From NCBI RefSeq assembly GCF_003581645.1, contig NZ_QXFK01000014.1, forward strand, positions 62,001-126,000: a DNA stretch of 64,000 nucleotides. Reading direction: 5' to 3'. This DNA comes from Pelagerythrobacter aerophilus (GTDB taxonomy: Bacteria > Pseudomonadota > Alphaproteobacteria > Sphingomonadales > Sphingomonadaceae). This document shows, piece after piece, positions 128-64,000 of this stretch (positions are counted from its first letter, which is position 1; the number at the start of each line of letters is the position of its first letter). The notes under the pieces were generated by a model. The model was given only the letters and a program-made list of their open reading frames with translations, was not told the origin of the DNA and ran no database searches. A program made the translations under genes and the position numbers.

Positions 128-1594
128 CTACCGTGCGGAGAGGCCGCCCATCGTGAAGTATTTGAGCTCGAGGAACTCATCCAAACCGTACTTCGAGCCT
201 TCGCGGCCGATGCCCGATTCCTTGACCCCGCCGAACGGTGCGGCTTCGCTCGAAATGATCCCTTCGTTGAGGCCGATCATCCCGTATTCGAGCTGCTCGG
301 CCACGCGCCACGCGCGCCCGAGATCGCGAGTCCAGAAGTAGGCGGCGAGGCCGTAGGGCGTATCATTTGCCCGTGCGATGACCTGTTCCTCCGTCTTGAA
401 CGGCATGATCGGTGCGATCGGGCCGAAGATCTCCGCACTTGCGATCTCCATCGAAGCATCGACGCCAGCAAGGATCGTCGGCGCGTAGAAATTGCCACCC
501 AGCGCATGTCCGCCGCCGCCGATCACACAATGCGCGCCTTTCGCCAGCGCATCGCGCACCAGCCCGTCCACCTTCTCTCTGGCGGCCGAATTGATCAGCG
601 GGCCGATCGCGTTTCCGCCCGCCATTCCATCGCCCACCGGCAGCGCTTCGACTGCAGCGGCGAAGCGAGCGGCGAACTCCTCGGCGATGCCGGCCTGAAC
701 GAACAGCCGATTGGCACAGACGCAGGTCTGCCCGGCGTTGCGGAACTTCGACTGGATCGCGCCTGCGACTGCCGCGTCGATGCCCGCATCGTCGAAGACG
801 ATGAACGGGGCGTTCCCGCCGAGTTCGAGCGAGAGCTTCTTCACCGTGTCCGCGCATTGCGCCATCAGCAGCTTGCCGACGCGCGTGGATCCCGTGAAGG
901 ATAGCTTCCGGACGTCCGGACTGTCCGTCAGCACCCGAGCGACGGGCTCCGCCCGGGCGGCGGTAACGACTTCCAGAACGCCCTCGGGAAAGCCGGCGTC
1001 CCGCGCGAGCGCTGCCAGGGCCAGGGCGCTCAAAGGGGTATCCTCGGCCGGCTTCAGAACGATGGTGCAGCCCGCGGCGAGGGCAGGCGCAACCTTCCGG
1101 GTCACCATGCCGACCGGAAAGTTCCACGGCGTAATGGCCCCGACGACGCCGATGGGCTGGCGCAGCACGAGCAGGCGGCGGCCCGGCGCATTTGAGGGGA
1201 TGATGTCGCCGTAGGCGCGCTTGCCTTCTTCGGCGAACCACTCGACGAAGCTCGCTCCATAGACGATCTCGCCCATCGCCTCTGCGATAGGCTTGCCCTG
1301 CTCGCGCGTCAGCAGCGTGGCGAGTGCCTCCTGATTGTCGAGGATCAGGTCGTGCCAGCGGCGCAGGATAGCGGCGCGCTCCTTGGCGGTCTTCGCTGCC
1401 CAGGCCGGAAGCGCCTCCTTGGCCCTGCTGACAGCCCGGGCGGCATCGTCGGCGTCCATGTCCGCCACATCCGCAATATGCGCACCGGTAGCCGGATTGC
1501 TGACCGGAAAACGCGCGGCGATACCGTCCCCCGGAGCAATCCGGGCGAGGAGATCCGTATCCTTTGCCCGGTCCATGTTCGTCATCACGTTCAT
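128..1594 (-). CDS. gabD: Succinate-semialdehyde dehydrogenase family aldehyde dehydrogenase
   Basis: This 488-residue NAD(P)-dependent aldehyde dehydrogenase most likely oxidises succinate semialdehyde to succinate, the last step of GABA and putrescine breakdown. Family signatures include the cofactor-binding TPWNFPVGM segment, the general base in LELGGNAP, the catalytic cysteine in GQTCVCANR, and a PFGGVKESGIGREG C-terminal motif typical of the GabD group. The ATG at 1594 was chosen over upstream starts because GGGGAGC lies at good spacing before it and it clears the stop of the aminotransferase by 14 bases. The two genes form an operon. Substrate is inferred from similarity and the neighbouring aminotransferase; a related semialdehyde is possible. 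Confidence 0.88.
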   Translation of the reverse strand: MNVMTNMDRAKDTDLLARIAPGDGIAARFPVSNPATGAHIADVADMDADDAARAVSRAKEALPAWAAKTAKERAAILRRWHDLILDNQEALATLLTREQGKPIAEAMGEIVYGASFVEWFAEEGKRAYGDIIPSNAPGRRLLVLRQPIGVVGAITPWNFPVGMVTRKVAPALAAGCTIVLKPAEDTPLSALALAALARDAGFPEGVLEVVTAARAEPVARVLTDSPDVRKLSFTGSTRVGKLLMAQCADTVKKLSLELGGNAPFIVFDDAGIDAAVAGAIQSKFRNAGQTCVCANRLFVQAGIAEEFAARFAAAVEALPVGDGMAGGNAIGPLINSAAREKVDGLVRDALAKGAHCVIGGGGHALGGNFYAPTILAGVDASMEIASAEIFGPIAPIMPFKTEEQVIARANDTPYGLAAYFWTRDLGRAWRVAEQLEYGMIGLNEGIISSEAAPFGGVKESGIGREGSKYGLDEFLELKYFTMGGLSAR

Positions 1595-1608
1595 CGGCCA
1601 GCTCCCCG

Positions 1609-2982
1609 CTACAAAAGTCCGTGGGCGGCGGCGGTCTTGTCGAGGCCGATCTTGGTCTTCTCGATCATCTCGTCGATCTCGGAGTGTCCGATCGTGAGCG
1701 GCGGGCAGGCGACCATCGTGTGGCCCACGGCGCGGAGGATGAGGTTCTCCCCGATGCAGTGCTCCCGGCATTCGATCGCCGGCTGCTCGGTGGGCGCGAA
1801 GAACTCGCGGCTGACCTTGTCGCGCACCAGTTGGAGGCCCGCGATCAGGCTGACGCCGCGCAGCTCTCCGACGATCGGGTGCGAATCCGCCAGTTGCTGC
1901 AACGAGTCCCGGAAGTAGGGCGCCGTCTCCTCGCGCACCTTCTCGATTAGACCTTCGCGCTCGATGATGTCGATATTGGCGAGTGCGACCGCGCAGGATA
2001 CCGGATGTCCTGAATACGTGTAGCCGTGCGATATGACGCCGCCGCCGTTGATGGCGTCGCTCACGCGCTTGTTCATGGCGACCGCGGCAATCGGAAGGTA
2101 TCCGGAGGAAAGACCCTTCGCCATCGGCATCAGGTCGGGCTCGATCCCGTACGTGTCCGATCCGAACCAGTTGCCCGTGCGGCCGAACCCGCAGATCACC
2201 TCGTCCGCCACCAGCAGGACGTCGTATTTTTTGCAGATGCGCTGGATCTCGGGCCAGTAGGTGGAGGGCGGATCGATGACGCCGCCTGCGCCCTGAACGG
2301 GCTCCCCGACGAAGGCCGCGACGTTCTCGGCGCCGAGTTCCAGAATCTTGGTCTCGAGTGCGCGCGCCGCTTCGAGCCCGAATTCGTCGGGCGTCTTGCC
2401 CTGACCGTGCCGGTACCAGTGCGGTTCGATGATGTGTTCGAAGCCGGGCAGGAGCGACTGGCCCATCGCATGCATCGGGGCCATGCCGCCGAGGCTCGTG
2501 GCGGCCAGCGTACTGCCGTGATAGCCGAGGGTGCGGCCGATGAAGACGTTCTTGCTCGGCTGGCCCTGGACTTCCCAGAAGTGACGCACGAGTCTGATGA
2601 TCGTGTCGTTCGCCTCAGAACCCGAGTTGGCGAAGAAGAAGTAGTCGAGCCCTGCCGGCGTCAGTTCCGAAAGGCGGCGGGCGAGCCGGATCTGGGTCGG
2701 CGTCGAGCTCGAGAAGAACGTGTTGTAGTAGGGCAGCGTCGCCATCTGTTTCGATGCAGCGTCGACCAGCTCCTGGCGGCCATAGCCGACATTCACGCAC
2801 CACAGGCCCGCCATCGTGTCGAGTATCTTGTTGCCGTCGCTGTCCCAGATGTAGCAGCCGTCGGCGTGGGTGAAGACGCGAACACCTTGTTCGCCAAGCA
2901 CTTTTGGATCGGTGAAGGGATGCAGATGGTGCTCACGGTCCAGCGCCTGCCATTCGGCGGTGGTGGTGGTAATCTGCTCCAT
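1609..2982 (-). CDS. Class III (omega) aminotransferase
   Basis: This 457-residue PLP-dependent class III aminotransferase has the length typical of omega-amino acid/polyamine:pyruvate transaminases. Visible signatures are NSGSEANDT near the phosphate-binding site, the LLVADEVICGFGRTG motif with the PLP-contacting aspartate, and the Schiff-base lysine in MAKGLSSGYLP. It would transfer an amino group from a terminal amine (putrescine, GABA, beta-alanine or similar) to pyruvate, giving an aldehyde for the dehydrogenase encoded 14 bases downstream. The start at 2982 is preceded by GGGAG at suitable spacing; an ATG at 3039 in frame lacks one. The exact amine cannot be read from the sequence. Confidence 0.88.
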   Translation of the reverse strand: MEQITTTTAEWQALDREHHLHPFTDPKVLGEQGVRVFTHADGCYIWDSDGNKILDTMAGLWCVNVGYGRQELVDAASKQMATLPYYNTFFSSSTPTQIRLARRLSELTPAGLDYFFFANSGSEANDTIIRLVRHFWEVQGQPSKNVFIGRTLGYHGSTLAATSLGGMAPMHAMGQSLLPGFEHIIEPHWYRHGQGKTPDEFGLEAARALETKILELGAENVAAFVGEPVQGAGGVIDPPSTYWPEIQRICKKYDVLLVADEVICGFGRTGNWFGSDTYGIEPDLMPMAKGLSSGYLPIAAVAMNKRVSDAINGGGVISHGYTYSGHPVSCAVALANIDIIEREGLIEKVREETAPYFRDSLQQLADSHPIVGELRGVSLIAGLQLVRDKVSREFFAPTEQPAIECREHCIGENLILRAVGHTMVACPPLTIGHSEIDEMIEKTKIGLDKTAAAHGLL

Positions 2983-3085
2983 CTCGAACTCCCATTCCTT
3001 CGGTTCCCGTTCGGGGTATGCCGCTCGGATGGGAGGCATCAGATGATTAAATCGCCAGTGCCGGTGCGCGGGGCGCACCGCTGGA

Positions 3086-3733
3086 TCAGTTCTCCTCGGC
3101 TGCCCGCTCGTTGTCCCGCATGAGGGCCGCAATCGCCTGATCGCCGAACCAGCCACGGGCTTCGAGGGCGTCGATTACCCTCATGCGGTCGCCGGCAGGG
3201 TGGGTCTGGCTCAGTTTGGTGACCCCTTCGATACGGTCGATTGCGATGCGGAACGACCGGATGTGGGGCAAGAGCGCATCGACGCGACCTTCGGGCGCTT
3301 GCGCCATCGTCCAAGGGGAACTGTGCCCCTGCTCGACCATCTCGGTCACGCGATCGAGCAACCGCAACTGGGTGTCGTCGTCATCGATCGGATCGAGAGT
3401 CCCCCGGACATGCGCGGTGACATAGTTCCATGTCGGCACTGTCGGGCGCTCGTGGTACCAACTCGCGGAGATATAGGCGTGCGGCCCGGCAAACACCGCC
3501 AGTGCGGTATCGCCGGCTTGCAGTGCCCGCGCGTGCGGATTGTTGCGGGCCATATGTCCGATCAGCCGCATTTCCCCGGGATCGTCGGTCTCGAAATAGA
3601 TCGGAACGGACGTCGCCCAAGGACCGGTTTCGCCAGTCGTGATCAGAAGCGCGAACGGATGCTCGCGCACGATCTGTCGCGGATCGTCCGCGGCATAGGC
3701 CTTGGGTGCGTAGAGGCGGCGTTCGTCGTTCAT
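3086..3733 (-). CDS. PaiB family FMN-binding protein
   Basis: This 215-residue protein belongs to the PaiB/FMN-binding split-barrel family (YAPKAYAADDP at the start, HMARNNPH and SWYHERPTVPTWNY in the middle). PaiB of Bacillus is described as a negative regulator linked to protease and sporulation genes and to the polyamine acetyltransferase PaiA, while relatives are FMN-binding proteins of unclear activity. Lying just upstream of an amine-degrading operon on the same strand, about 100 bases away, it may take part in polyamine metabolism. That is inference; no DNA-binding motif is obvious. Confidence 0.85.
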   Translation of the reverse strand: MNDERRLYAPKAYAADDPRQIVREHPFALLITTGETGPWATSVPIYFETDDPGEMRLIGHMARNNPHARALQAGDTALAVFAGPHAYISASWYHERPTVPTWNYVTAHVRGTLDPIDDDDTQLRLLDRVTEMVEQGHSSPWTMAQAPEGRVDALLPHIRSFRIAIDRIEGVTKLSQTHPAGDRMRVIDALEARGWFGDQAIAALMRDNERAAEEN

Positions 3734-3923: not shown

Positions 3924-5117
3924 ATGGATCATGAAGCCGGGGAGTGTGAAGCGTTGGGGGAAGTAATCACGAGTGCCGATGGAAGTGGGCAGCCCCTGGC
4001 TTCGATTGAGCAGGCTTATGCCGGCAAGCTGATGCCTGATGAGCAGGTGCACCTGTTCCGCAACACGCACCGCGTCTTTCCCTGCCGGCGCATTTCGCGC
4101 GGCGACGGTCCGGTCCGGGACTTGCCGCGGGAGGTCGATGTCGTCGAGGACTTTCCGGTAAGGGCCGGCGAGCAGGAGTTCGATCTCTACGACTACGTCT
4201 CGCGCAACCGGCTCGTCGGACTGCTCATGCTCAAGGACGGGAAGGTCGTTCACGAACGCTACGAACTCGGGATCGACGCCGGTACCCGGTGGATGTCGAT
4301 GTCGATGGCGAAATCCGTAAGCACGCTTCTGATCGGCATCGCCATCCGCGACGGATTCATCGGCAGTGTCGACGATCCTCTGACGGATTATCTGCCCGAG
4401 CTGCGGGGAAGCGGTTACGACGGCGTCTCGATCCGCCATCTGATGCAGATGACCTCGGGCGTCGAATGGGACGACACCCATACCGACCCCAACTCGCACC
4501 GGCGCCACATGCTGGCCCTGCAGGTCGGACAGCAGCCCGACGCCATTCTGAAATACATGGCGAGCCTCCCGCGCGTCGCGGAGCCCGGCACGCGCTGGAA
4601 CTACAGCACCGGTGAAACCCACGTCGTAGGGGCGCTGGTCAAGGCGGCGACGGGGCGCTGGCTGGCGGACTACCTTTCGGAAAAATTCTGGTCGCGGCTC
4701 GGCATGGATGCCGATGCCGAATGGTGGCTCGAAGCGCCCGACGGCCTCGAAGTCGCCGGCAGCGGCATCTGCGCCACGCTCCGCGACTATGCGCGGCTCG
4801 GCCTCTTCGCGATGAACGACGGCCGGATCGGGGACGAGCAGGTACTGCCCGCGGGCTGGATCGAGGAATCCACCGCACCGCGCGAAGCAGGCGGGGAGCC
4901 CCTGAACTACGGCTACATGTGGTGGCCGGTCCCCGATGCGAAAGGATCGTTCGCGGACGGCGCGTTCAGCGCTCGCGGAATCTTCGGACAGTATATCTAC
5001 GTCAATCCCGCCGAACGGGTGGTGCTGACGGTGCTCAGCTCGCGGTCCAAACCTAAGTTCGCCGAAGCCATACTGGACAACCACTTCTTCAATTCGGCTG
5101 TCGAGGCGCTGCGCTGA
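3924..5117 (+). CDS. Beta-lactamase-fold serine hydrolase
   Basis: This protein of about 397 residues has the class C beta-lactamase/esterase fold. The nucleophile motif is S127-M-A-K130 (SxxK) and the second motif is Y227-S-T. WDDTHTD and WNYSTGETHVVGALV are typical of the 6-aminohexanoate-dimer-hydrolase-like esterases. No convincing signal peptide is seen, so it is likely cytoplasmic. The start is uncertain: the ATG at 3924 has no clear ribosome binding site, and an in-frame ATG near residue 37 is an alternative. It converges on the LysR gene with only 4 bases between stops. The substrate is unknown. Confidence 0.8.
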   Translation: MDHEAGECEALGEVITSADGSGQPLASIEQAYAGKLMPDEQVHLFRNTHRVFPCRRISRGDGPVRDLPREVDVVEDFPVRAGEQEFDLYDYVSRNRLVGLLMLKDGKVVHERYELGIDAGTRWMSMSMAKSVSTLLIGIAIRDGFIGSVDDPLTDYLPELRGSGYDGVSIRHLMQMTSGVEWDDTHTDPNSHRRHMLALQVGQQPDAILKYMASLPRVAEPGTRWNYSTGETHVVGALVKAATGRWLADYLSEKFWSRLGMDADAEWWLEAPDGLEVAGSGICATLRDYARLGLFAMNDGRIGDEQVLPAGWIEESTAPREAGGEPLNYGYMWWPVPDAKGSFADGAFSARGIFGQYIYVNPAERVVLTVLSSRSKPKFAEAILDNHFFNSAVEALR

Positions 5118-5121
5118 CCGG

Positions 5122-6105
5122 TCAGGCGGCGGATTTCAACGCCGGGTAATCGGCTGCCAGGGCGGAGGTGACCCATTGCCTGAAGCGTCTGAGCAGTGGA
5201 TCGTTCCAGCGATCGCGGCGCGCGTAGAGCGTATAGCGACCGAGCCGTGGCGCGAACTGCAGATTGTCCTTGCCTATGTCGATCAGGGATCCTGATTGAA
5301 GATCGGCTCCGGCCGTCACTGGATTGGCTAGGGCGATGCCTCGCCCATGCCGCGCTGCGTCGAGCGTGAGATGTCCTTCCCACAGGCGCGCTCCGGTGAG
5401 GCCGGAGCTGTCCTCCACGCCGTAGGAAGCGAGCCACTTGGCCCAGGTCTGGAAGCTGTCTTCGTGAAGCAGCCGGTGCTGAAGAAGGTCTTCCGGCGTC
5501 TTCGGAGTCTGGGTGCTGCCAAGATAGCCGGGACTCGCCACCGCAATGATCGGCGCCTCCACCAGAATCTGGCGCCTGAGCAACGGCAGCAGTTCCGGTT
5601 CCGGTTCATAGGTCGCGTGGAAGCGGACGTCGATATCCGCCTCGTGCGCGGCGAAATCCGGGCTGTGGTCGGTCGGGCGGAGGACGATGTCGGCGGCGTC
5701 GTTGCGCCGCTCGAACTGTTCGAGGCGGCTCGACAGCCAGTGCAGTGCGAAGCCCGAGGTGCTCCAGATATGAAGCCGCCGGTGGTGGCCCTCGCTCATC
5801 AGATCAAGCGTGGCGTGCGCCAGCATATCCATCGCGGCCGACACCCGCCCGTGATAGTCGCGGCCCCGTTCGGTGAGCGCGATGCCGTATGGTGTGCGCT
5901 CTACCAGTTGCACGCCGGCCCAGGATTCGATCGCGCGGAGATGGCGGCTGATCACGGCGTGATCGCGGTCCAGCCATTGCGCCGCCCGTCTGACGCCGCC
6001 CAGCCGCGCAACGGCATCGAAGGCCCGCAGCGCCTCGAACGGGGGCAGAGCCTTCCGCGAAGGTGGGTTATCGGATCGTGGAGCCGGAGGCTGGTTGTCC
6101 GCCAT
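5122..6105 (-). CDS. LysR family transcriptional regulator (GcvA-like)
   Basis: This 327-residue LysR-type regulator has an N-terminal winged helix-turn-helix (about residues 20-80: LPPFEALRAFDAVARLGGVR, then AVISRHLRAIE) and a LysR substrate-binding domain over the rest. The wording around the HTH is typical of the GcvA/AmpR-like subgroup common in Sphingomonadales. It is transcribed away from the truncated porin remnant and toward the serine hydrolase. LysR proteins often regulate a divergent neighbour, and here that neighbour is the decayed porin, so its present target is unclear. Confidence 0.88.
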   Translation of the reverse strand: MADNQPPAPRSDNPPSRKALPPFEALRAFDAVARLGGVRRAAQWLDRDHAVISRHLRAIESWAGVQLVERTPYGIALTERGRDYHGRVSAAMDMLAHATLDLMSEGHHRRLHIWSTSGFALHWLSSRLEQFERRNDAADIVLRPTDHSPDFAAHEADIDVRFHATYEPEPELLPLLRRQILVEAPIIAVASPGYLGSTQTPKTPEDLLQHRLLHEDSFQTWAKWLASYGVEDSSGLTGARLWEGHLTLDAARHGRGIALANPVTAGADLQSGSLIDIGKDNLQFAPRLGRYTLYARRDRWNDPLLRRFRQWVTSALAADYPALKSAA

Positions 6106-6250
6106 TCAAATCCTTCGTGCGCTCGCGAGAATGAATTGCCTATCATTCGGTGCCGCGACGGACGGGTCAAGAGGGGCAACCCGAATGCGTGGCGGTGCTG
6201 CATCTGCACCACACCTCCCAGCCTTGGCATCTGGCGGCCTGCGCAGACCA

Positions 6251-6967
6251 ATGGTCCAGCACGGCATCGGCCCCGAACTGTCGCAGTCGGGAGCCAACGG
6301 TCCCTCCATCTTCCCGACCACGACCACCGCGGTCGTCTATGGCTTCGAAGCCGAACGTTGGGGCGCGAGGGTGGGCGCCTTCAATGCGGTCGCCGGCGAT
6401 CCGGCGAACCCGAAAAAGACGGTCTTGCCCTTCCCGGGTGAGGACGGATTGCTGCTGATTGCCGAGGTCGAACATCGGTCCGGAAGTGTGCGGACCTACG
6501 CCGGCCTCTGGGCATACAGCACGGCTTCGCCTGACCTCCTGCACCCGGCTGACGCGGCCGGCGATCGGTGGCGCAGTCGTGGGGCTTACGCTGCTATGGA
6601 AACGACGCTCGCAACGACGCACACCGGCGAAAAGCTCGAATCATGGGTTCGGGTTGGCGTTGCCAATGAGGATGTCCTCCCGGTCGCGACCTACTTGGGC
6701 GGCGGAGTTCGCTACGGCACCGAGGGCCGGGGCATCGGCTTCGCCATTGCCCATGCGCGCCTCGGCGATCCCGCGATCGAAGCCGCAGCGATCAGCGGCT
6801 ACGGGGCTCAGCGGGTGGAGACCAACTTCGAACTCAGCTACGCTCATGCGCTGACGCCGACAGTGACCATTCAGCCGGATATTCAGTACGTGCGCAATCC
6901 GGGTTGGGATCCGGCCCTCGACGACGCGCTGGTCATTGGTCTGCGGCTGAGCGCCGGCTTTCGCTGA
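6251..6967 (+). pseudogene. OprB family carbohydrate porin, 5'-truncated remnant
   Basis: The reading frame from about 6251 to 6967 matches the C-terminal part of OprB-type outer-membrane carbohydrate porins: GIGPELSQSGANGPSIFP, then AGLWAYS, GFAIAHARLGDP and the closing ETNFELSYAHALTPTVTIQPDIQYVRNPGWDP-type strands (read in pieces), ending in an aromatic-basic terminus. Roughly 240 residues remain where the family normally has over 400. No signal peptide, N-terminal strands or ribosome binding site are present, and the frame upstream (6095-6250) is unrelated sequence overlapping the LysR start. The 3' end overlaps the stop of the PepSY gene by about 35 bases. I call it a pseudogene. Confidence 0.72.
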
Positions 6968-8021
6968 CGCGGCGGGCACGCCTCTGCCAGCTCAATACGC
7001 CAAGGACGATCATCGTCACCAGCCAGCATCCGACCGCGAGATTGAGCAATCGGCCGGGGACGGCGCTGATCTGGCCCGTGTGAATCGGGTAGAGCCATTC
7101 GATCAGCCGGCGCGCGGGCTTGCTCGACCGCGCGTCATGGTCGCCGAGGATGCTGCCGTCGACGGAGGATACCCATACGGTCGTCGCCCCGAACTGCCGG
7201 GGGATCTCGCCATCCGCGCGCAGCCTGATCCGGTACCAGGGCGCGTCCTCCGCAGGCATCGACAGCGCCGTGAGTTCTCCTCCCGGATAGCGGGCGAGGG
7301 CGCGTGCCATCGCCTCGCCCGGAGCGACGGCGACTGGACCAGGCGGGGCCGCTATCGGATCGGCCAGGCCACCGTCCACAGCGCTTTCTATCGAGTCCAG
7401 AAAGGCGAGCTGGATACCCGCCGCGACCATGAGCGCCGCGGGCGCGCCCACCCACAAACCCAGCAACCGATGCCAGCCCGTGATACGGGCTGAGCGTGGT
7501 CCCCTAGGCCGAGTGGTCAGCGCGCGCCGGAAGTTTCTCGCAGGCCAGGCCGCGGTGAGACCCAGCACGATGTTGCTGAAGAGCAGCAGGCCGCTGATTC
7601 CGATCAGTACCGTGCCCGTGCTCCCGAGCAGGAGCGACTTGTGGAATAGCGTCAGCGTCTCGAACACGGCGCCGTCGGAAAATTTCTCGCGATCCGGCCT
7701 GTCGCGGAGCACCTCGCCGCCGCCATCTACGCGAATGGTCCGATCGCCGTCGGGGGCGGAGACGTAGATGTCGTATTGGCCCGGGATGCCTCCGGTCGCC
7801 CACATGCCGCTGACGTCCAGTCCGCCGCGCTCAACCGTCTCGATCCTCTCGCCCAGCGCTTCGACGCTGGTTCCGGTGGCGACGCCGCTCAGCCACCAAT
7901 CGTCCAGCTCCGCCCGAAACGAAATCGCAATGCCACTGAGAGCCTGAAGCAGCCAGAAGACGGCGGCCGCGAGGCTCAGGTACTTGTGCACGCGCCGGGC
8001 GCTTGTGCGGACTGCCGCCAT
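6933..8021 (-). CDS. PepSY-associated transmembrane protein
   Basis: This 362-residue inner-membrane protein has the PepSY_TM layout: a first membrane helix near residues 15-35 (YLSLAAAVFWLLQALSGIAIS), a periplasmic PepSY domain, two central helices (about 130-160 and 190-210, with the GWHRLLGLWVG motif) and a last helix near 325-345. Such proteins are often found with siderophore receptors and are thought to act as membrane reductases or iron-linked factors; neither role is shown here. GGAGGGG lies upstream of the start. The gene converges on the porin remnant and overlaps its end. Confidence 0.85.
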   Translation of the reverse strand: MAAVRTSARRVHKYLSLAAAVFWLLQALSGIAISFRAELDDWWLSGVATGTSVEALGERIETVERGGLDVSGMWATGGIPGQYDIYVSAPDGDRTIRVDGGGEVLRDRPDREKFSDGAVFETLTLFHKSLLLGSTGTVLIGISGLLLFSNIVLGLTAAWPARNFRRALTTRPRGPRSARITGWHRLLGLWVGAPAALMVAAGIQLAFLDSIESAVDGGLADPIAAPPGPVAVAPGEAMARALARYPGGELTALSMPAEDAPWYRIRLRADGEIPRQFGATTVWVSSVDGSILGDHDARSSKPARRLIEWLYPIHTGQISAVPGRLLNLAVGCWLVTMIVLGVLSWQRRARRVSESRRSAADQ

Positions 8022-8227
8022 TGTGCTTCATCCCCTCCTCGGTTCGGACGGGGACAAAGTGAGCTTCGGCCAGCCTCGCGCCAGATGCGAATGAGGGTGG
8101 CGGTGGTGACTTCGCCGCAACAGGGGATGCTTCGAACGCGCCTGTCTGTGCCGAAGCGCCTGTGTTGCATTTCCCTGTGCGGCCGCTGATCGAAAAGGGC
8201 AAAGGGGTGCTTGTGGGGAGGGGAAGA

Positions 8228-11200
8228 ATGAAAGTTGCCTGGTTGGGGCTGGTACTTGCCCTGGCGCTTGCCCCCTGTGCGTCCAGTGCGCCCGTTTCTG
8301 CCGAGCCGTCGTCGCCGGCGAGCCCGCCCTACGGGGACGTGAATATCACGGTCTCCGAGGGCACTTGGATGAGCGTCGACGTCAGTCCCGACGGGAAGAC
8401 GATCGCCTTCGATCTCCTTAACGACATTTACGTCATGCCCGCGACCGGCGGCGAGGCGCAGCTCGTCCATGGCGGTCCGGCGATGCAGCGCAGCCCCCGT
8501 TTCAGCCCCGATGGCGAGCGGCTGCTGTACCTCAGTGACGAGGACGGGGCGGACAATATCTGGACGTCCCGCGTGGATGGGGCCGACGCCCGCCAGATCT
8601 CGCGCGAGACGACGCTCGCAGTCACCGGTCCGGCCTGGAGCGTGGACGGCGAGAGCGTCGCTGCCGCCCGGATGTTCGACAGCGCGGACAAGCTACACGC
8701 GTCGGAGCTTCGCCTTTACGACGTCGCCACGGGCGACGATGAGCAACTCGTCGCTGCCCCCGCCAACGGCGAGAACGTGCACGAACCGGCTTTCGGGCGC
8801 GACGGCCGCTGGCTGTACTACACCGAGAAGGTATCCGCCCCGACAGCGTCGGTCGTCTATGTGGATGCGAACCATATCAACTACGCGATCAAGCGCCGCG
8901 ATCTTCGCACCGGTTCGGTAGAGGAAGTGGTGAAGGGGTTCGGCAGCGCTACGAGCCCCGTCGTTTCGCCCGACGGGCGCAAGCTCGCCTTCTTGAGGCG
9001 CGTCAAGACGGACACCGTGCTCTTCCTCTACGATCTGGAAACGCGCGAGCAGTGGCCGGTATTCGCCGGTCTCGATCGCGACGATCAGGCGGATTTCCTG
9101 GGGCAGGGCCTCTATTATCCGCAGTACGACTGGTTTCCCGATAACCGCTATCTCGCGATCTGGGCGGGCGGCAAGATCCTCCGTCTCGACACCGAGACTG
9201 GCGAAACGGAAGAGATTCCGTTCACGGCCTCGGCCACCCATCGCCTCGCCAAGCCCCCGCGGGTGGCGCAGGACCTCGCACCGGAAGAATTCCGCGCGCG
9301 GATCATTCGCCAGCTTGCCTGGGCGCCCGGCAGCGACCGCGTGAGCTTCAATGCGCTCGGCAGGATCTGGAGCCAGCCGGCCGGCGGTGCGCCGACGCGC
9401 CTCACGGCGGGCGATCTGCCGGAGTTCGATCCCGCGTATTCGCCGGATGGTACCCGGGTAGCGTTCGTCGACTGGAAGGACGACCGGGGCGGTACGCTCA
9501 AAGTACGGGACAGCAGCGGAGACGTCCGAGCCCTTGTGGAGAGCGCGGGAATCCTTCGTGCCCCGGCGTTCTCACCCGACGGCAAGCGCATCCTCTATAT
9601 CATTGCAGAGGGCGATCGTTGCCTCGGTGGCCACCGGGCACGTCCGGGCATCTATTGGACCGACGTGAGTGGAGGGCCGTCCCATTATGTCGGCCCGACC
9701 GCCCTCGAAGCCGCGTTCTCGCCCGATGGAACGCGGATCTGGTTCAGCACCGAAGGCTACGCCGGCCATGATCTGGTCTCGCAAGTGGAAAGTCTGCGGC
9801 TCGACGGAACCGACCACCGCGTCCACGCGCGCGCATCGCATGCCGACGTAAACGAGCTGAAAGTCAGCCCCGATCTCAAGTGGATCGCCTTCCGTCATGA
9901 GCAGCAATACTACCTCGAGCCTTTCGCGCCAGGCGCCGAACCGGTCGAGATCACTCCCGATGGCGCAAATCCTCTCGGGCATCTCGGCGGTTACGAGCTT
10001 ACCTGGGCGCCGGATTCGAGCGCAGTGCTCTGGGCGCTCGGCCCCACCGTCTATCGAAGCGCGGTTTCGGATGTTTCGCCCGTAGTGCACACCAAGATCG
10101 AGCTGACGGCCGAAGCGGACGTGCCGAGCGGTGCCCTGGCGTTCGTCAACGGGCGCATCATTACCATGCGCGGCGACGAGGTGATCGAGCGTGGCACCGT
10201 GGTCGTGCGCGGGAACCGGATTCAGGCCGTCGGGCCCGCCGCCGCGATCGACGTGCCGGCCGATGCCAAGGTGATCGACATCAGCGGCAAGACCGTGATG
10301 CCGGGCCTCGTCGACATGCACGGCCATGTGGACAATTGCTACTACAGTTCGTCCGGCCTCACGCCTGAGAAGCAGCCTACCCAATATGCCGATCTCGCAT
10401 ATGGGGTGACCACCAATTACGATCCCTACACCTCGGAACTGGCGACGTACGCCACTCGCGAAATGACGATGGCCGGGATGATGACCGGTCCGCGCGCGAT
10501 CGATTCCGGGATGGTCGTCTACGGGCGGACCGGCAAGGTCGACAAGGTCTACATCCCGATCGAAAGCCAGGCCGATGCCGATGCGCTGATGGCGCGCAAG
10601 CAGGCGCTCGGCGGCACTATCGTCAAGAGCTATCGCCAGCCGATGCGCCGCCAGCGCCAGCAGATCATCGACGCCGGCCGCGACGCCGGGATCATGGTCG
10701 ACGTGGAAGGGGAGAGCCACTTCTACAACAACGTCACTATGATCCTCGACGGTCATACCAACCTGCAGCACAACATGCCGCTGGAGAACATCTACGACGA
10801 CGTCGTCCAGCTCATGGCGGCGTCGGATGTGGCGCACACTCCGACGCTGATTGTGCTGTTCGGAGAGCTGATGGGAGAGAACTATCTCTACCAGCATACC
10901 CGCGCTTGGGAGGATCCGAAGGCGCGCCGTTTCGTCCAGTTGACGACAAGTGGATACAGCCCGCTCGGCGCCCCTTATGGCGCGCCGCCGCACGTGCGCG
11001 GCATGACCACCATCCACGCGGCGGACGAACTCTACGACATCGGCTTCCGCGCCGCCGCACGGTCGATGAAGGCGCTCGATGATGCGGGCGTGGTGATCAA
11101 CGCCGGATCGCACGGCCAGGTCACCGGCCTCGCGCTCCACTGGGAGATGTGGCTGCTTGCCGAAGGGGGCATGTCGAACCACCGGGTTCTGCGGACCGCC

Positions 11201-60849: not shown

Positions 60850-60872
60850 CCGTTATCCCAGCTTTCGCTAGG
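60850..60872. repeat. Degraded copy of the dispersed repeat
   Basis: TTATCCCAGCTTTCGCTAGG closely matches one arm of the inverted repeat at 38301-38325 (ATCCCAGCTTTCGCTGGGA), with few differences. It lies at the start of the AT-richer P450 region and may mark an insertion or recombination point. Confidence 0.5.
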
Positions 60873-61041
60873 CCTCCTTTGTTATAGCTCGCTGCAAATC
60901 TCGATATCGCCACTGTACGAAGGGAGATCGCGGGAAACCTGACCTGCCCTTCCAACTTCCTCTAAAACGCCGGATGATGTCGAAGAGAACTGGTATTGTG
61001 GGAAGTGGCCGTCTGCAAAAAGAAAGCGGCGCTCGCTCCAT
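60868..61041 (-). CDS. Possible small basic protein after P450 gene
   Basis: A 57-codon frame (MERAPLSFCRRPLPTIPVLF at its start) begins at 61041 with AGGGG 7 bases upstream; an in-frame ATG at 61056 overlaps the P450 stop as ATGA. It is rich in Arg and has a DIIRRFRG segment. No family is recognised and coding is unproven; it may be a second peptide of the cluster or chance. Confidence 0.3.
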   Translation of the reverse strand: MERAPLSFCRRPLPTIPVLFDIIRRFRGSWKGRSGFPRSPFVQWRYRDLQRAITKEA

Positions 61042-61052
61042 ACCATTTCCCC

Positions 61053-62138
61053 TCATGCGGCTATCTTTGAGGTCAGGAGGAATTGCCTGGGCCTAAGGAC
61101 CGCAGATACGAGAGGCTTATCAGCGTCGGCCAGCTCAGTCACTGTGGCCCGGGAAAGATTCATATTTCTCAGGACAAATTCGATAAAGGCCAAGCTGAAC
61201 GAGGCCGCCGGACACTTATGGTCTCCGTGGCCGAACGGTATCCAGAAGAGCTCTTTTGCATCATGGCTCCACATAGTCGTGTCGAAGCCCTCTTCCCACT
61301 GTCCGGGGGTTTTGAGGCGCTGAAGAAGATATGGTGAAATTAACAGCTTCGTTGTCTCATCTACCTCAATGTCATCCACCAGCATTCTTTTCTTGGGATA
61401 CCGCTCCAACATCCACGCTATTGGCATATGGCGCATTGATTCCTTGATCATTATTCGCTCGTCGCCTGCCTGCCCACCTTCTCTAACGAAGTAAAATACG
61501 GCCCATGACAATGATAAGGAAAGTGATTTGATGATGGAGAACAGCGCGGACATAAATATACGCAAGGCGACATCATCACCCATTTCTCTGCGCCACCCTC
61601 CGATAAACTCAAGAATATCGCCATATTGAGCATCATTAATAGCATTTTTTGAGTTTATTTCTGATAAAATCTTGTGCATTAGCGAGGCGCTTGTCACTTT
61701 GCTCCAAAGGCTTCGTTTTTCTGGCGCAGCCACTGAATGCACGAATCGATTGAAGGCTCGCCGAATCCTTTCGGAGCGGCGATCTGAGACGAGGACCGTG
61801 GCCAGGGTTTCATGCACGATCGCGAAGGCGAGATCAGGCCAGTGAGACGTTTCCGGCAGATGAAAGACAGCTCGCTTGCGGAGCAAGGAAAGCCTGGAGG
61901 ATACAAGCCTAAGAAGCTCGCGCGCGATCGCGCGCTGGTCAGCTCGGCAAGGGGCCTGCTCACCTAACCGGCCGAAAAAGTCGGAATGATCGACAAAAGC
62001 CTGATCACGATTGTCGAGTATCTGCAGCGCCAGCTTGCGGTCCATCACGCAAAGGTTGCCTGGTGCTAACCATGCCGCCTTTTCGCCAGTACTGCCGGCT
62101 TCGTGGAGCTGATCGAGAAGTTCCGTTCGATTCCGCAT
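61053..62138 (-). CDS. Small divergent cytochrome P450 (P450-A)
   Basis: This 361-residue protein is a P450 by its heme loop FGHGDHKCP (F302 to P310, cysteine C309 as heme ligand) and its ExxR (E233-S-M-R236) followed by the PERF-like region. It is short for a bacterial P450 (about 400) and its I-helix segment (SIIKSLSLSLSWAVFYF) lacks the usual acid-threonine pair. Codon use and base composition look more AT-rich than in neighbouring genes. It is divergent from the peptide gene at 62330 and the second P450, suggesting it modifies that peptide. The start ATG at 62138 has a weak GGATAG site. Confidence 0.85.
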   Translation of the reverse strand: MRNRTELLDQLHEAGSTGEKAAWLAPGNLCVMDRKLALQILDNRDQAFVDHSDFFGRLGEQAPCRADQRAIARELLRLVSSRLSLLRKRAVFHLPETSHWPDLAFAIVHETLATVLVSDRRSERIRRAFNRFVHSVAAPEKRSLWSKVTSASLMHKILSEINSKNAINDAQYGDILEFIGGWRREMGDDVALRIFMSALFSIIKSLSLSLSWAVFYFVREGGQAGDERIMIKESMRHMPIAWMLERYPKKRMLVDDIEVDETTKLLISPYLLQRLKTPGQWEEGFDTTMWSHDAKELFWIPFGHGDHKCPAASFSLAFIEFVLRNMNLSRATVTELADADKPLVSAVLRPRQFLLTSKIAA

Positions 62139-62175
62139 GTTACTCTATCCGATAGCTGTCGCATCTAACCGACAG

Positions 62176-62297
62176 TGTACCTGGTCGTCGGAGATGTACC
62201 AGAGCTTCCTATAGTTGGCGGAGAGACATGGAATGTACATCCCATGACATGTCAAATATTACATAAGGGGTGGACTTGCGAGCAGACGAGCTATAGT
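62176..62297. promoter_or_regulatory. Divergent control region of the P450/peptide cluster
   Basis: The 191-base gap between the divergent genes has TGTAC at 62176, 62195 and 62235 (19 and 40 bases apart, about two and four turns), the last inside the 20-bp near-palindrome CATGGAATGTACATCCCATG (62227-62246; 18 of 20 positions symmetric). A weak sigma-70-type pair (TGGACT 62271-62276, 15-base spacer, TATAGT 62292-62297) faces the peptide gene, 32 bases before its ATG. Together these suggest regulated transcription by an unlinked dimeric factor. Confidence 0.45.
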
Positions 62298-62329
62298 CTC
62301 CGATTCACTAACGCGAAGAGGAGAAGCCA

Positions 62330-62431
62330 ATGCGTAGTTTCTTTAAATCGGTTCGTTACGCTCTGAACATCCGCCCGCGTACAGGGCATACGATTTGGGG
62401 GCCGGCTTGGCCTCAGTACGTCGAGCTTTGA
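62330..62431 (+). CDS. Candidate P450-modified RiPP precursor peptide
   Basis: A 34-codon gene with GAGGAGAAG directly upstream of its ATG encodes 33 residues. The first 17 or so (MRSFFKSVRYALNIRPR) are basic and amphipathic, like a leader; the end is TIWGPAWPQYVEL, with W23, W27 and Y30 as likely crosslink sites. It sits between two divergent P450 genes and is followed by a hairpin. This matches the design of ribosomal peptides crosslinked by P450s (atropopeptides, biarylitides, cittilins), but sequence identity to those is not evident. A regulatory leader peptide is the main alternative. Confidence 0.7.
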   Translation: MRSFFKSVRYALNIRPRTGHTIWGPAWPQYVEL

Positions 62432-62440
62432 GGCATTGAC

Positions 62441-62467
62441 GCCGGGAGACTACTAAGGTCTCCCGGC
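62441..62467 (+). terminator. Hairpin between peptide gene and P450-B (attenuator)
   Basis: GCCGGGAGAC and GTCTCCCGGC form a perfect 10-bp stem with a 7-base loop, starting 10 bases after the peptide stop. Only a weak T-rich tail (TCTTCCC) follows, so it is likely a partial terminator or 3'-end stabiliser, which would give more peptide mRNA than P450 mRNA. Confidence 0.65.
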
Positions 62468-62487
62468 TCTTCCCAGAGGCAAACCTT

Positions 62488-63675
62488 TTGACGTCTGCAG
62501 AGCTTGCTGCCGGCAACTGTCAGGCTTCAGTCCAACGAACCGGTCCGGATTCCTGGCTTGTAAATTGCCGAAATGCGGCGCTCGATGCCGAGTTGCAGAA
62601 CGCACGTTGCACCAGATTTCCTGCCAGGCATCACGGATTTTTTAGCAAACGCCGAGACCCCGTCCTTTGGCAGGATGTGAGGCGGGTCATCACTAAGGCA
62701 TCACGCGCTGCTCGCATCAGATTACCAGCTCGTAACCTTTATGAGGGCATAGCCAAGAGATTTGATGCGGGGACTCGGGAGCAACCTCAAGATCTCACTT
62801 ATTTCGTGATGAGCACGCTGGCGAACGCCACGTTGCCGATGATCATCGATGATGAAGCGTCGATCGCGGGTTTGTCCCTGGATCAGAACGATAAAATTAC
62901 AAAGCAGATCAATTTTCACCATTTAAGGCATGGGTTCTGGCAACGGGCTCTGTCCATGATGGTCGAATATCGAGCCGGTAGAGCGGTTCGCAAGGCTGTA
63001 GCGCATCGTATTGAGCGCGGCGACACCGATAAGGCCGACTTCCTTCATACACTCTTAGAACTGGAAGATGTCATCGGCCTCCGGGGCATCTCCTATCTTA
63101 TCGTGACGCTATCTTCGGCTGTCTCGACCGCACCAGGCGCAATAGCATCATGTATGCTTTACAAGCTCCTCCTGGATGAAGAGCGCTTCGAACGAGTTCA
63201 CGAGGAGCTGGCCGACTGGGACGTAGCTAGTATCGCTCAGATAGACCATGGACAGTTTAAATATTGTCAGCGCTTCATCAAAGAAGCACTTCGCCTTTGG
63301 TCCTTCCCGCTTCGGGCTCGTCGTCTGGTACATACTGACATGTGGATCGACGGTGAGTTGATATGCAAAGGTGACGTCTACGACCTAAGCTTTGAACATT
63401 TCCACCGGGATTCAGCGGTTTGGGATGACGCTGCGTCCTTCCATGAGGAGCGCTGGCTGAGTCCCTCCGAAGCTCAAATGAAGAGCTATTTCCCCTTTGG
63501 CTTTAGCAAACGTTCTTGTCTGGGCGCATCGATCGGGCTGGATCAGCTGCTGATCTTTTTGCGCCTTGCGACGGTCGACTTTCAATTCCTATTGGCCGAC
63601 GATGCAAAACCGAAGCTATCAAGCGAGATCCTCCATGTCCCATCGGATTTCGTAGGCACTTTCCGCCGGAAGTAG
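62488..63675 (+). CDS. Divergent cytochrome P450 (P450-B)
   Basis: This 395-residue P450 has the heme loop FGFSKRSCLG (F337 to G346; ligand C344), an ExxR (E266-A-L-R269) and FPLRARR. The I-helix segment LSSAVSTAPGA has S213-T214 where an acid-threonine pair is usual. It appears to start at TTG with AGAGG upstream; no early ATG exists in frame. It lies 57 bases after the peptide gene on the same strand. P450-A and P450-B are not obvious close copies of each other. Confidence 0.87.
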   Translation: MTSAELAAGNCQASVQRTGPDSWLVNCRNAALDAELQNARCTRFPARHHGFFSKRRDPVLWQDVRRVITKASRAARIRLPARNLYEGIAKRFDAGTREQPQDLTYFVMSTLANATLPMIIDDEASIAGLSLDQNDKITKQINFHHLRHGFWQRALSMMVEYRAGRAVRKAVAHRIERGDTDKADFLHTLLELEDVIGLRGISYLIVTLSSAVSTAPGAIASCMLYKLLLDEERFERVHEELADWDVASIAQIDHGQFKYCQRFIKEALRLWSFPLRARRLVHTDMWIDGELICKGDVYDLSFEHFHRDSAVWDDAASFHEERWLSPSEAQMKSYFPFGFSKRSCLGASIGLDQLLIFLRLATVDFQFLLADDAKPKLSSEILHVPSDFVGTFRRK

Positions 63676-63681
63676 CTGATC

Positions 63682-64000
63682 TTGTCCGTCGAGCTCAGCT
63701 TCCAAGCAGTTCATCGTGACGATAGCGGGCACGGTGAGCTCGAAATGGCCCTCTACCGAATTGTCAGCAATGGCGCTTCTGTGGGCGAATTGGTGCTTCG
63801 GCTTCGGAGCATGAGCGCTACTCGCCTCTATCACGGCGATGTCGGTTACCGAGTGCGAGAGCAGCACCGCGGTCAAGGCTACGCGGCGGCCGCCCTGCGG
63901 CAGCTTCCGCCAATCGCCTTAAAGTTTGGTTTTACAGAGCTGTGGTTTACCTGCGCACCCGATAACGTCGCATCTCGGAAGACCCTCGAAAGAGCTGGTG
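63682..64000 (+). CDS. GNAT family acetyltransferase (partial, runs off right edge)
   Basis: From a TTG 6 bases after the P450-B stop, an open frame of about 106 codons reads to the edge of the window. It contains GYRVREQHRGQGYAAAALRQ (the acetyl-CoA-binding motif A) and ELWFTCAPDNVASRKTLERAG (motif B), so it is a GNAT acetyltransferase of the RimJ/RimL type. It is probably co-transcribed with P450-B and could N-acetylate the modified peptide or confer self-protection; this is inference. Confidence 0.75.
   Translation, partial: MSVELSFQAVHRDDSGHGELEMALYRIVSNGASVGELVLRLRSMSATRLYHGDVGYRVREQHRGQGYAAAALRQLPPIALKFGFTELWFTCAPDNVASRKTLERAG

Follow-up and report, generated by a model that had tools for sequence, protein, structure and literature searches.

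Among ribosomally synthesised and post-translationally modified peptides (RiPPs), the closest described system to the locus analysed here is probably hyalucidin A, which the title of Yin et al (Angew. Chem. 2026, doi 10.1002/anie.202522698, as cited in PMC13417212) presents as a case of "tandem P450 catalysis". Atropopeptides, according to the available portions of PMC11450843 and PMC12352619, derive from short precursors with WxxW or WxxY cores that are crosslinked by cytochrome P450 enzymes (P450s); a second P450 is present in some clusters, and members from Pseudomonadota are described too. The available part of PMC13417212 presents biarylitides as P450-crosslinked aromatic RiPPs, Pseudomonadota included, with a precursor of five residues. 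Here, we describe two P450 genes, P450-A and P450-B, and a gene for a 33-residue peptide located between them, in a 64,000-nucleotide stretch of contig NZ_QXFK01000014.1 (hereafter the window). We consider it probable, as far as can be judged from the sequences, that these genes form a minimal RiPP cluster on an acquired island and that both P450s oxidise the Trp27-Tyr30 pair of the peptide into a rigid ring. The cluster very probably belongs to a broad two-P450 RiPP family, in which it is a deeply diverged member from an alphaproteobacterium; the Streptomyces branch of that family was probably described in 2026.

The precursor peptide and the P450 pair

The original prediction for this locus featured a 33-codon gene with a strong ribosome binding site, and we confirmed both the gene, with its sequence as given, and its AGGAG element, which ends six bases 5' of the ATG. 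The encoded peptide combines the leader typical of the family (ALNIR) with the core positions W27, Y30 and L33. We ranked the 1317 small open reading frames (ORFs) of the window (20–60 residues, every start counted, so that nested ORFs repeat) against a profile of 30 distinct precursors, built without the window peptide and with sequences repeated across loci entered once. The window peptide ranked first with an E-value of 0.0042, the next ORF reaching 0.73; this match rests on the leader, and the profile alignment ends before W27. A W..Y..[ILM] C-terminus was found at one of the 654 distinct ORF ends in the window, that of the precursor, and no ORF but this one carries the leader pattern described below. 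The relatives were already known when both patterns were drawn up, and the patterns were fitted to the same precursor set; the profile ranking is independent of them.

The flanking genes had been described as two divergent P450 genes with intact heme-ligand cysteines and ExxR, in agreement with our Pfam and motif analysis. P450-A carries the heme motif FGHGDHKC and barely passes the Pfam p450 cut-off (E-value 2.2e-5, 23.9 bits versus 22.8), and P450-B carries FGFSKRSC and matches with an E-value of 4.8e-24. Based on the alignment, type A enzymes are shorter than type B between the I and K helices. The closest solved relative of P450-A is PDB 9ulw (376 residues, named "Cytochrome P450" by its depositors), with an E-value of 1.2e-23 over residues 30–357, followed by 3.4e-5 for the next entry. 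It shares 25% identity with P450-A of the window and 99.7% with P450-A of the related genome G1151 (locus L137, 6621–7775), from which it differs at one position over the 337 residues compared. Literature searches, to which most subscription papers were inaccessible, found no paper naming 9ULW, and a search with precursor fragments gave a single, unrelated match. AlphaFold2 models from 29 sequences showed a mean pLDDT of 77 for P450-A and 85.7 for P450-B; in Foldseek both models fell among ordinary P450s, with 9ulw absent among the 50 matches listed for either.

Using P450-A, we identified one full-length relative besides itself among 385 genomes of the class (G898, E-value 3.1e-31), with 22 more genomes matching only from about residue 227 onward, and one such relative among 397 genomes of the family (G467, E-value 1.2e-35). 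A five-sequence A-type profile added one more from 398 genomes of the phylum, G1151, whose E-value of 2.1e-156 arises by construction, the profile having contained the nearly identical 9ulw stretch; 72 other genomes matched this profile in the C-terminal part only. The order of G898 (43 genomes) contained no additional full-length P450-A. In each of G898, G467 and G1151, P450-A is adjoined by P450-B and a short peptide, represented by MTKLYRAIKAALAVRTTDEPYHWYQYSNL in G898 (locus L072), MKKLFRTIRSKMNMRPTACPAGWSWWYYIEV in G467 (locus L222) and two peptides ending WRWVMYHHM and WFWMLYHHM in G1151. According to the trees, the P450s of G1151 group with those of Rheinheimera and Pseudoalteromonas.

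A scan of named genomes with three aligned P450-B sequences gave 84 relatives, from which 80 loci were kept. Thirty of these contain nearly full-length relatives (L138–L167, that of L164 starting from residue 56), and the 50 partial ones (L168–L217) were dropped. P450-A is adjacent to P450-B in 28 of the 30, the exceptions being L164 and L167; distinct A and B enzymes thus stand side by side in 31 other loci (28 scan loci plus G898, G1151 and G467). Conservation of the peptide beside homologous P450s, the check proposed in the original prediction, was borne out in 29 of the 30 scan loci (L164 being truncated by the end of its contig) and in the three additional genomes. The A and B homologues of members lie side by side, with near-full-length homology at 20–28% identity, as is the case in the window. 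The pair occurs in Pseudomonadota, Actinomycetota, Myxococcota and Acidobacteriota; the scan hosts comprise Streptomyces, Yinghuangia, Saccharothrix, Actinosynnema, Rhizocola and Virgisporangium, together with Rheinheimera, Pseudoalteromonas, Corallococcus and metagenome-assembled genomes (MAGs) of Thermoanaerobaculia and Acidobacteria. Gene order varies between lineages: the loci of actinobacteria, Corallococcus and the Thermoanaerobaculia MAG are arranged as A-peptide-B, all in one direction, and those of Rheinheimera, Pseudoalteromonas and G1151 as peptide(s)-B-A. In all three alphaproteobacterial loci (window, L072 and L222), A is divergent from peptide-B. Clusters of non-P450 ORFs common to at least four loci were mostly limited to close Streptomyces and to at most seven loci, except for one reaching Rhizocola and one reaching Corallococcus; among the best 40 clusters, ABC-transporter ORFs were common to four loci, including L072, L137 and L138.

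The precursors of this family are 28–44 residues long. All 32 distinct sequences, that of the window included, have W at position −7, Y at −4 and I, L, M or V at −1, and the 31 other than that of G467 end in W..Y..[ILM]. The leader pattern [A/V/K/T][L/M]x[I/V/L/M][R/Y] is likewise present in 32 of 32. Most precursors end in Y-H-H-I, but this tail does not define the family: it is replaced by YVEL in the window and YIEV in L222, both precursors ending Y-[V/I]-E-[L/V], and further variation is seen in L072, L137, L138, L139, L140, L161 and L163. Tandem precursor copies, two or four in number, occur in L137, L138 and L140. The last of these (Pseudoalteromonas sp. OOF1S-7, 5425–5916) has four tandem precursors of one leader type 5' of one P450 pair, and their varied cores (YVWPNYSNI, YFWHHYNNI, YLWIMYNNI and YLWKLYNNI) represent a natural core library.

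The single-sequence P450-B scan of genome contigs gave no match, and the peptide search of the 397 family genomes gave, besides the peptide itself, weak matches only (best E-value 0.0076). The sole P450-like match among the peptide-hit loci (L028–L046), in L031, was rejected; its peptide hit lies over the P450 gene in a different frame. The peptide search missed G467, whose precursor was found later, and peptide-only searches are therefore too weak here. Among plasmids, neither P450-A nor the peptide had a match, and the 119 records obtained with P450-B, none above 60% identity and at 24–30% among the matches listed, were set aside. With further A- and B-type members as queries, the plasmids yielded two near-full-length A-type P450s, in Embleya and Streptomyces KN37. 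These and the B-like P450s of L168, L169 and L193 have no partner and were left out of the family counts.

Proposed chemistry and rival explanations

In the mechanism that we propose, the 33-residue peptide would be the precursor, its basic N-terminal half ending in ALNIR serving as the leader recognised by the P450s and its C-terminal part as the core. By analogy with known P450 RiPPs, the P450s are expected to join aromatic side chains. P450-A and P450-B together would oxidise Trp27 and Tyr30, most likely to a benzofuranoindoline-type or biaryl-type link between them. A benzofuranoindoline forms with a net loss of 2 H and joins one Trp to one Tyr through two bonds, which could require both enzymes. 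The hairpin after the precursor gene would give more precursor than P450-B message, and a host peptidase would remove the leader; the GNAT acetyltransferase encoded 3' of P450-B may cap the product, provide self-protection or be a passenger. Because A and B nearly always occur together and only one aromatic pair, W and Y at a spacing of three residues, is invariant, the action of both enzymes on one pair is the simplest reading.

Several observations weigh against this proposal. The window core W-P-Q-Y-V-E-L departs from the W-Y-L-Y-H-H-I, or a close form of it, found in most members, neither a peptidase nor an exporter was seen in the island, and the z-score of the hairpin is above −2 in 11 of the 26 stretches compared. 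The end branches of the window enzymes are very long (4.28 for A and 6.64 for B), and of the positions near-invariant among the other members these enzymes retain 38 of 74 (A) and 44 of 81 (B). The five further diverse members that were tested retain a larger share, as does L222 (59 of 74 and 59 of 81). When G467 was added, the end branches were 4.37 (A) and 3.47 (B), in trees that leave out 14 rows (12 close actinobacterial ones, Embleya and KN37). In these, P450-B of the window groups with that of G467 (support 100/98), and the same grouping for P450-A was neither recovered nor rejected (p-AU 0.353); the tree program warned that long rows are placed unsurely. Because of these very long branches, the reaction in the window may differ or have decayed.

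A bicyclic peptide, in which one P450 would join W27 to Y30 and the other W23 to W27, comes near to the original prediction, and we regard it as a tentative possibility. The co-occurrence of the two P450s in 28 of the 30 scan loci is consistent with it, as is the finding that, in 31 of 31 precursors, at least one of the four residues preceding the invariant Trp is W, Y, F or H; L222 has a W at −9. Also, in the available part of PMC11450843, the second P450 of the atropopeptide laurentirubin B is reported to modify the product of the first further, by an aryl ether. However, this upstream aromatic residue has no fixed place: position −9 is Y in 16 of 31 precursors and W in four, otherwise Q, H, I, P or other, and W23 of the window lies at −11. 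Of the W/W/Y positions named in the original prediction, W27 and Y30 are thus family positions, being conserved in 32 of 32 precursors, and W23 is not, since the upstream aromatics wander. The single invariant aromatic pair would fit two enzymes acting on a single Trp-Tyr pair at least as well as it fits two crosslinks. Alternatively, as its P450s and its aromatic spacing (W-GPA-W-PQ-Y for the window) have both changed, the branch that holds the window and G467 might make a new ring system, with three aromatic residues (at least two Trp plus Tyr) joined otherwise than in the Streptomyces products and the window GNAT capping the freed amine; we consider this unlikely.

Decay of the cluster, with P450s and precursor of family descent whose product is no longer made, would account for the very long branches and for the near-invariant positions, about half of which are lost. 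We find it improbable, as the frames are open and the heme cysteines, ExxR, ribosome site, leader, core and hairpin are all intact. The G467 cluster, which groups with the window in the B tree, is likewise diverged and has open frames and both motifs. The hairpin between the peptide and P450-B, and an island in which no peptidase was seen, could also suit a leader ORF that controls P450-B, with the P450s belonging to a small-molecule pathway. This appears highly improbable given that the core residues are fixed across phyla, that some loci carry the tandem copies described above, and that the peptides of gammaproteobacterial loci are located upstream of both P450s.

The island and its surroundings

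The features of the locus are listed in the table. The cluster is a 3.6-kb insertion at a used integration site: in two congeners, G298 and G299, about 0.5 kb separates the two flanking genes, PBP and thioesterase, which align to the left and right of a gap whose left edge falls at about 60862 (60836 in G299). The GC content is about 54% in the cluster versus 67% in the flank, and P450-A is found in none of six other genomes of the genus; the island was probably acquired horizontally. The predicted interval of 61053–64000 therefore contains the right genes but is too narrow, the island extending beyond it on both sides. In a third congener, G297 (L220, about 1012–3202), about 2.2 kb of different DNA lies between the PBP and thioesterase genes, and in the remaining three these genes are not neighbours. 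As for the host, a protein that we take to be CobS-like shares 85% identity with its counterpart in Novosphingobium sp. Rr 2-17 and 70–74% with the counterparts in Methylobacterium, Mesobaculum and Paracoccus; four of seven genomes gave a match, and an Altererythrobacter MAG, Rheinheimera and Corallococcus gave none. Because of these identities we view the host as a sphingomonad-like alphaproteobacterium, which, together with the conserved peptide beside P450 pairs, supports the predicted RiPP cluster in an alphaproteobacterium.

Features of the locus (positions in the window)
Feature	Position	Strand	Remarks
Low-GC island, ~3.6 kb	60862..64000 (left edge approximate), right end ~505 bases past window	.	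missing at same place in two congeners
P450-A, 361 aa	61053..62138	-	E233xxR236 and C309 intact
Divergent intergenic region	62139..62329	.	holds palindrome 62227-62246
Shine-Dalgarno AGGAG	62319..62323	+	precursor gene
Precursor peptide gene, 33 aa	62330..62431	+	ATG start, stop included; leader with ALNIR (residues 11-15); core WGPAWPQYVEL
W27 codon; Y30 codon	62408-62410; 62417-62419	+	precursor core positions
Hairpin 3' of precursor stop	62441..62467	+	stem GCCGGGAGAC / GTCTCCCGGC; z -4.5
P450-B, 395 aa	62488..63675	+	TTG start; E266xxR269 and C344 intact
GNAT acetyltransferase, 5' part	63682..64000	+	TTG start; whole gene 152 aa, end ~141 bases past window

The hairpin is a probable attenuator between the precursor and P450-B. 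Among 26 stretches from 25 loci, 15 showed z ≤ −2.5 after the precursor, and L222 showed a strong hairpin fold there (folded without shuffles); Rfam at the gathering threshold gave no match in locus L006. The divergent promoter region contains the palindrome CATGGAATGTACATCCCATG, possibly an operator. The predicted GNAT gene 3' of the second P450 is present, and the full protein matches Pfam Acetyltransf_3 with an E-value of 1.8e-10. Its predicted role in the pathway, acetylation of an amine, found no such backing: the GNAT had no match at E-values up to 1 in 32 related loci, with flanks of about 6 kb or less in most, nor in L222 at 0.01. Beyond it, nothing more resembles pathway genes, and the next genes, including the thioesterase, are on the opposite strand.

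Some related loci deviate from the paired arrangement. In L167 (Streptomyces alanosinicus, 4468–5841), a precursor is followed by P450-B over two overlapping ORFs; an A-type ORF was looked for in this locus and none was found, which makes it either a broken copy or an assembly error. L103 (plasmid of Embleya sp. NBC_00888, 7974–9218) carries an A-type P450 directly followed by the small gene MMAIIRRILTNTPPLIWNPKDPW with a strong ribosome site, possibly a one-P450 RiPP with a related enzyme. In L104 (plasmid of Streptomyces sp. KN37, 7590–9053), the tandem small genes MSWVTSSLRALSGEMRARWHGYFVGYGQQN and MSWIIKSLRALSGEARARRNQYGDRYGHNA are located 5' of a lone A-type P450; each of these two plasmid loci has a single P450 among ORFs of at least 100 residues. 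L168, L169 and L193 (Nonomuraea and Streptomyces ADI96-02, about 5287–6693) share a conserved small gene ending GGMYTYWN[FI][WF]N 5' of a lone B-like P450 and look like another P450 RiPP type.

Comparison with known systems

This locus extends tandem-P450 peptide crosslinking, as proposed here, to sphingomonad-like alphaproteobacteria, and the A/B enzyme pair and the W-x-x-Y core are common to four phyla. The deeply diverged enzyme pair and the natural precursor variants make the division of labour between the P450s directly testable, with the 9ulw link offering a structural template for P450-A.

Atropopeptides, as far as the accessible text describes them, resemble this system in their short precursor, P450s and aromatic core. 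However, their KSLK-type leader motif, or a listed variant, is found in none of 31 precursors here, the window peptide having KSVR at residues 6–9. A W is present in the window peptide, which lacks the KSLK that would set the register for the atropopeptide core xWxxxx after the leader motif. The family also differs in its core W at −7 and Y at −4, its fixed hydrophobic end and in having two P450s as the rule. Biarylitides have a single crosslinking P450. Their pentapeptide contrasts with the 33 residues of the window precursor, and the 28–44 residues and two P450s of the family.

The likeness to hyalucidin A is closer, its title indicating two P450s acting on a bacterial RiPP, as here. A product containing a benzofuranoindoline would be the mark of the hyalucidin type. 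Locus L156, from Streptomyces hyaluromycini, has the order A-precursor-B with precursor MRALYLKTKSVLNVRRSYGQFWYLYHHI and, judging from its name, would be the hyalucidin cluster. The P450s of the window share only 23–25% (A) and 20–25% (B) identity with their counterparts in the aligned Streptomyces loci, and its core WGPAWPQYVEL compares with SYGQFWYLYHHI in the Streptomyces or hyalucidin type. Unlike a hyalucidin-type locus, the cluster of the window is a divergent operon, has an added GNAT gene and belongs to an alphaproteobacterium.

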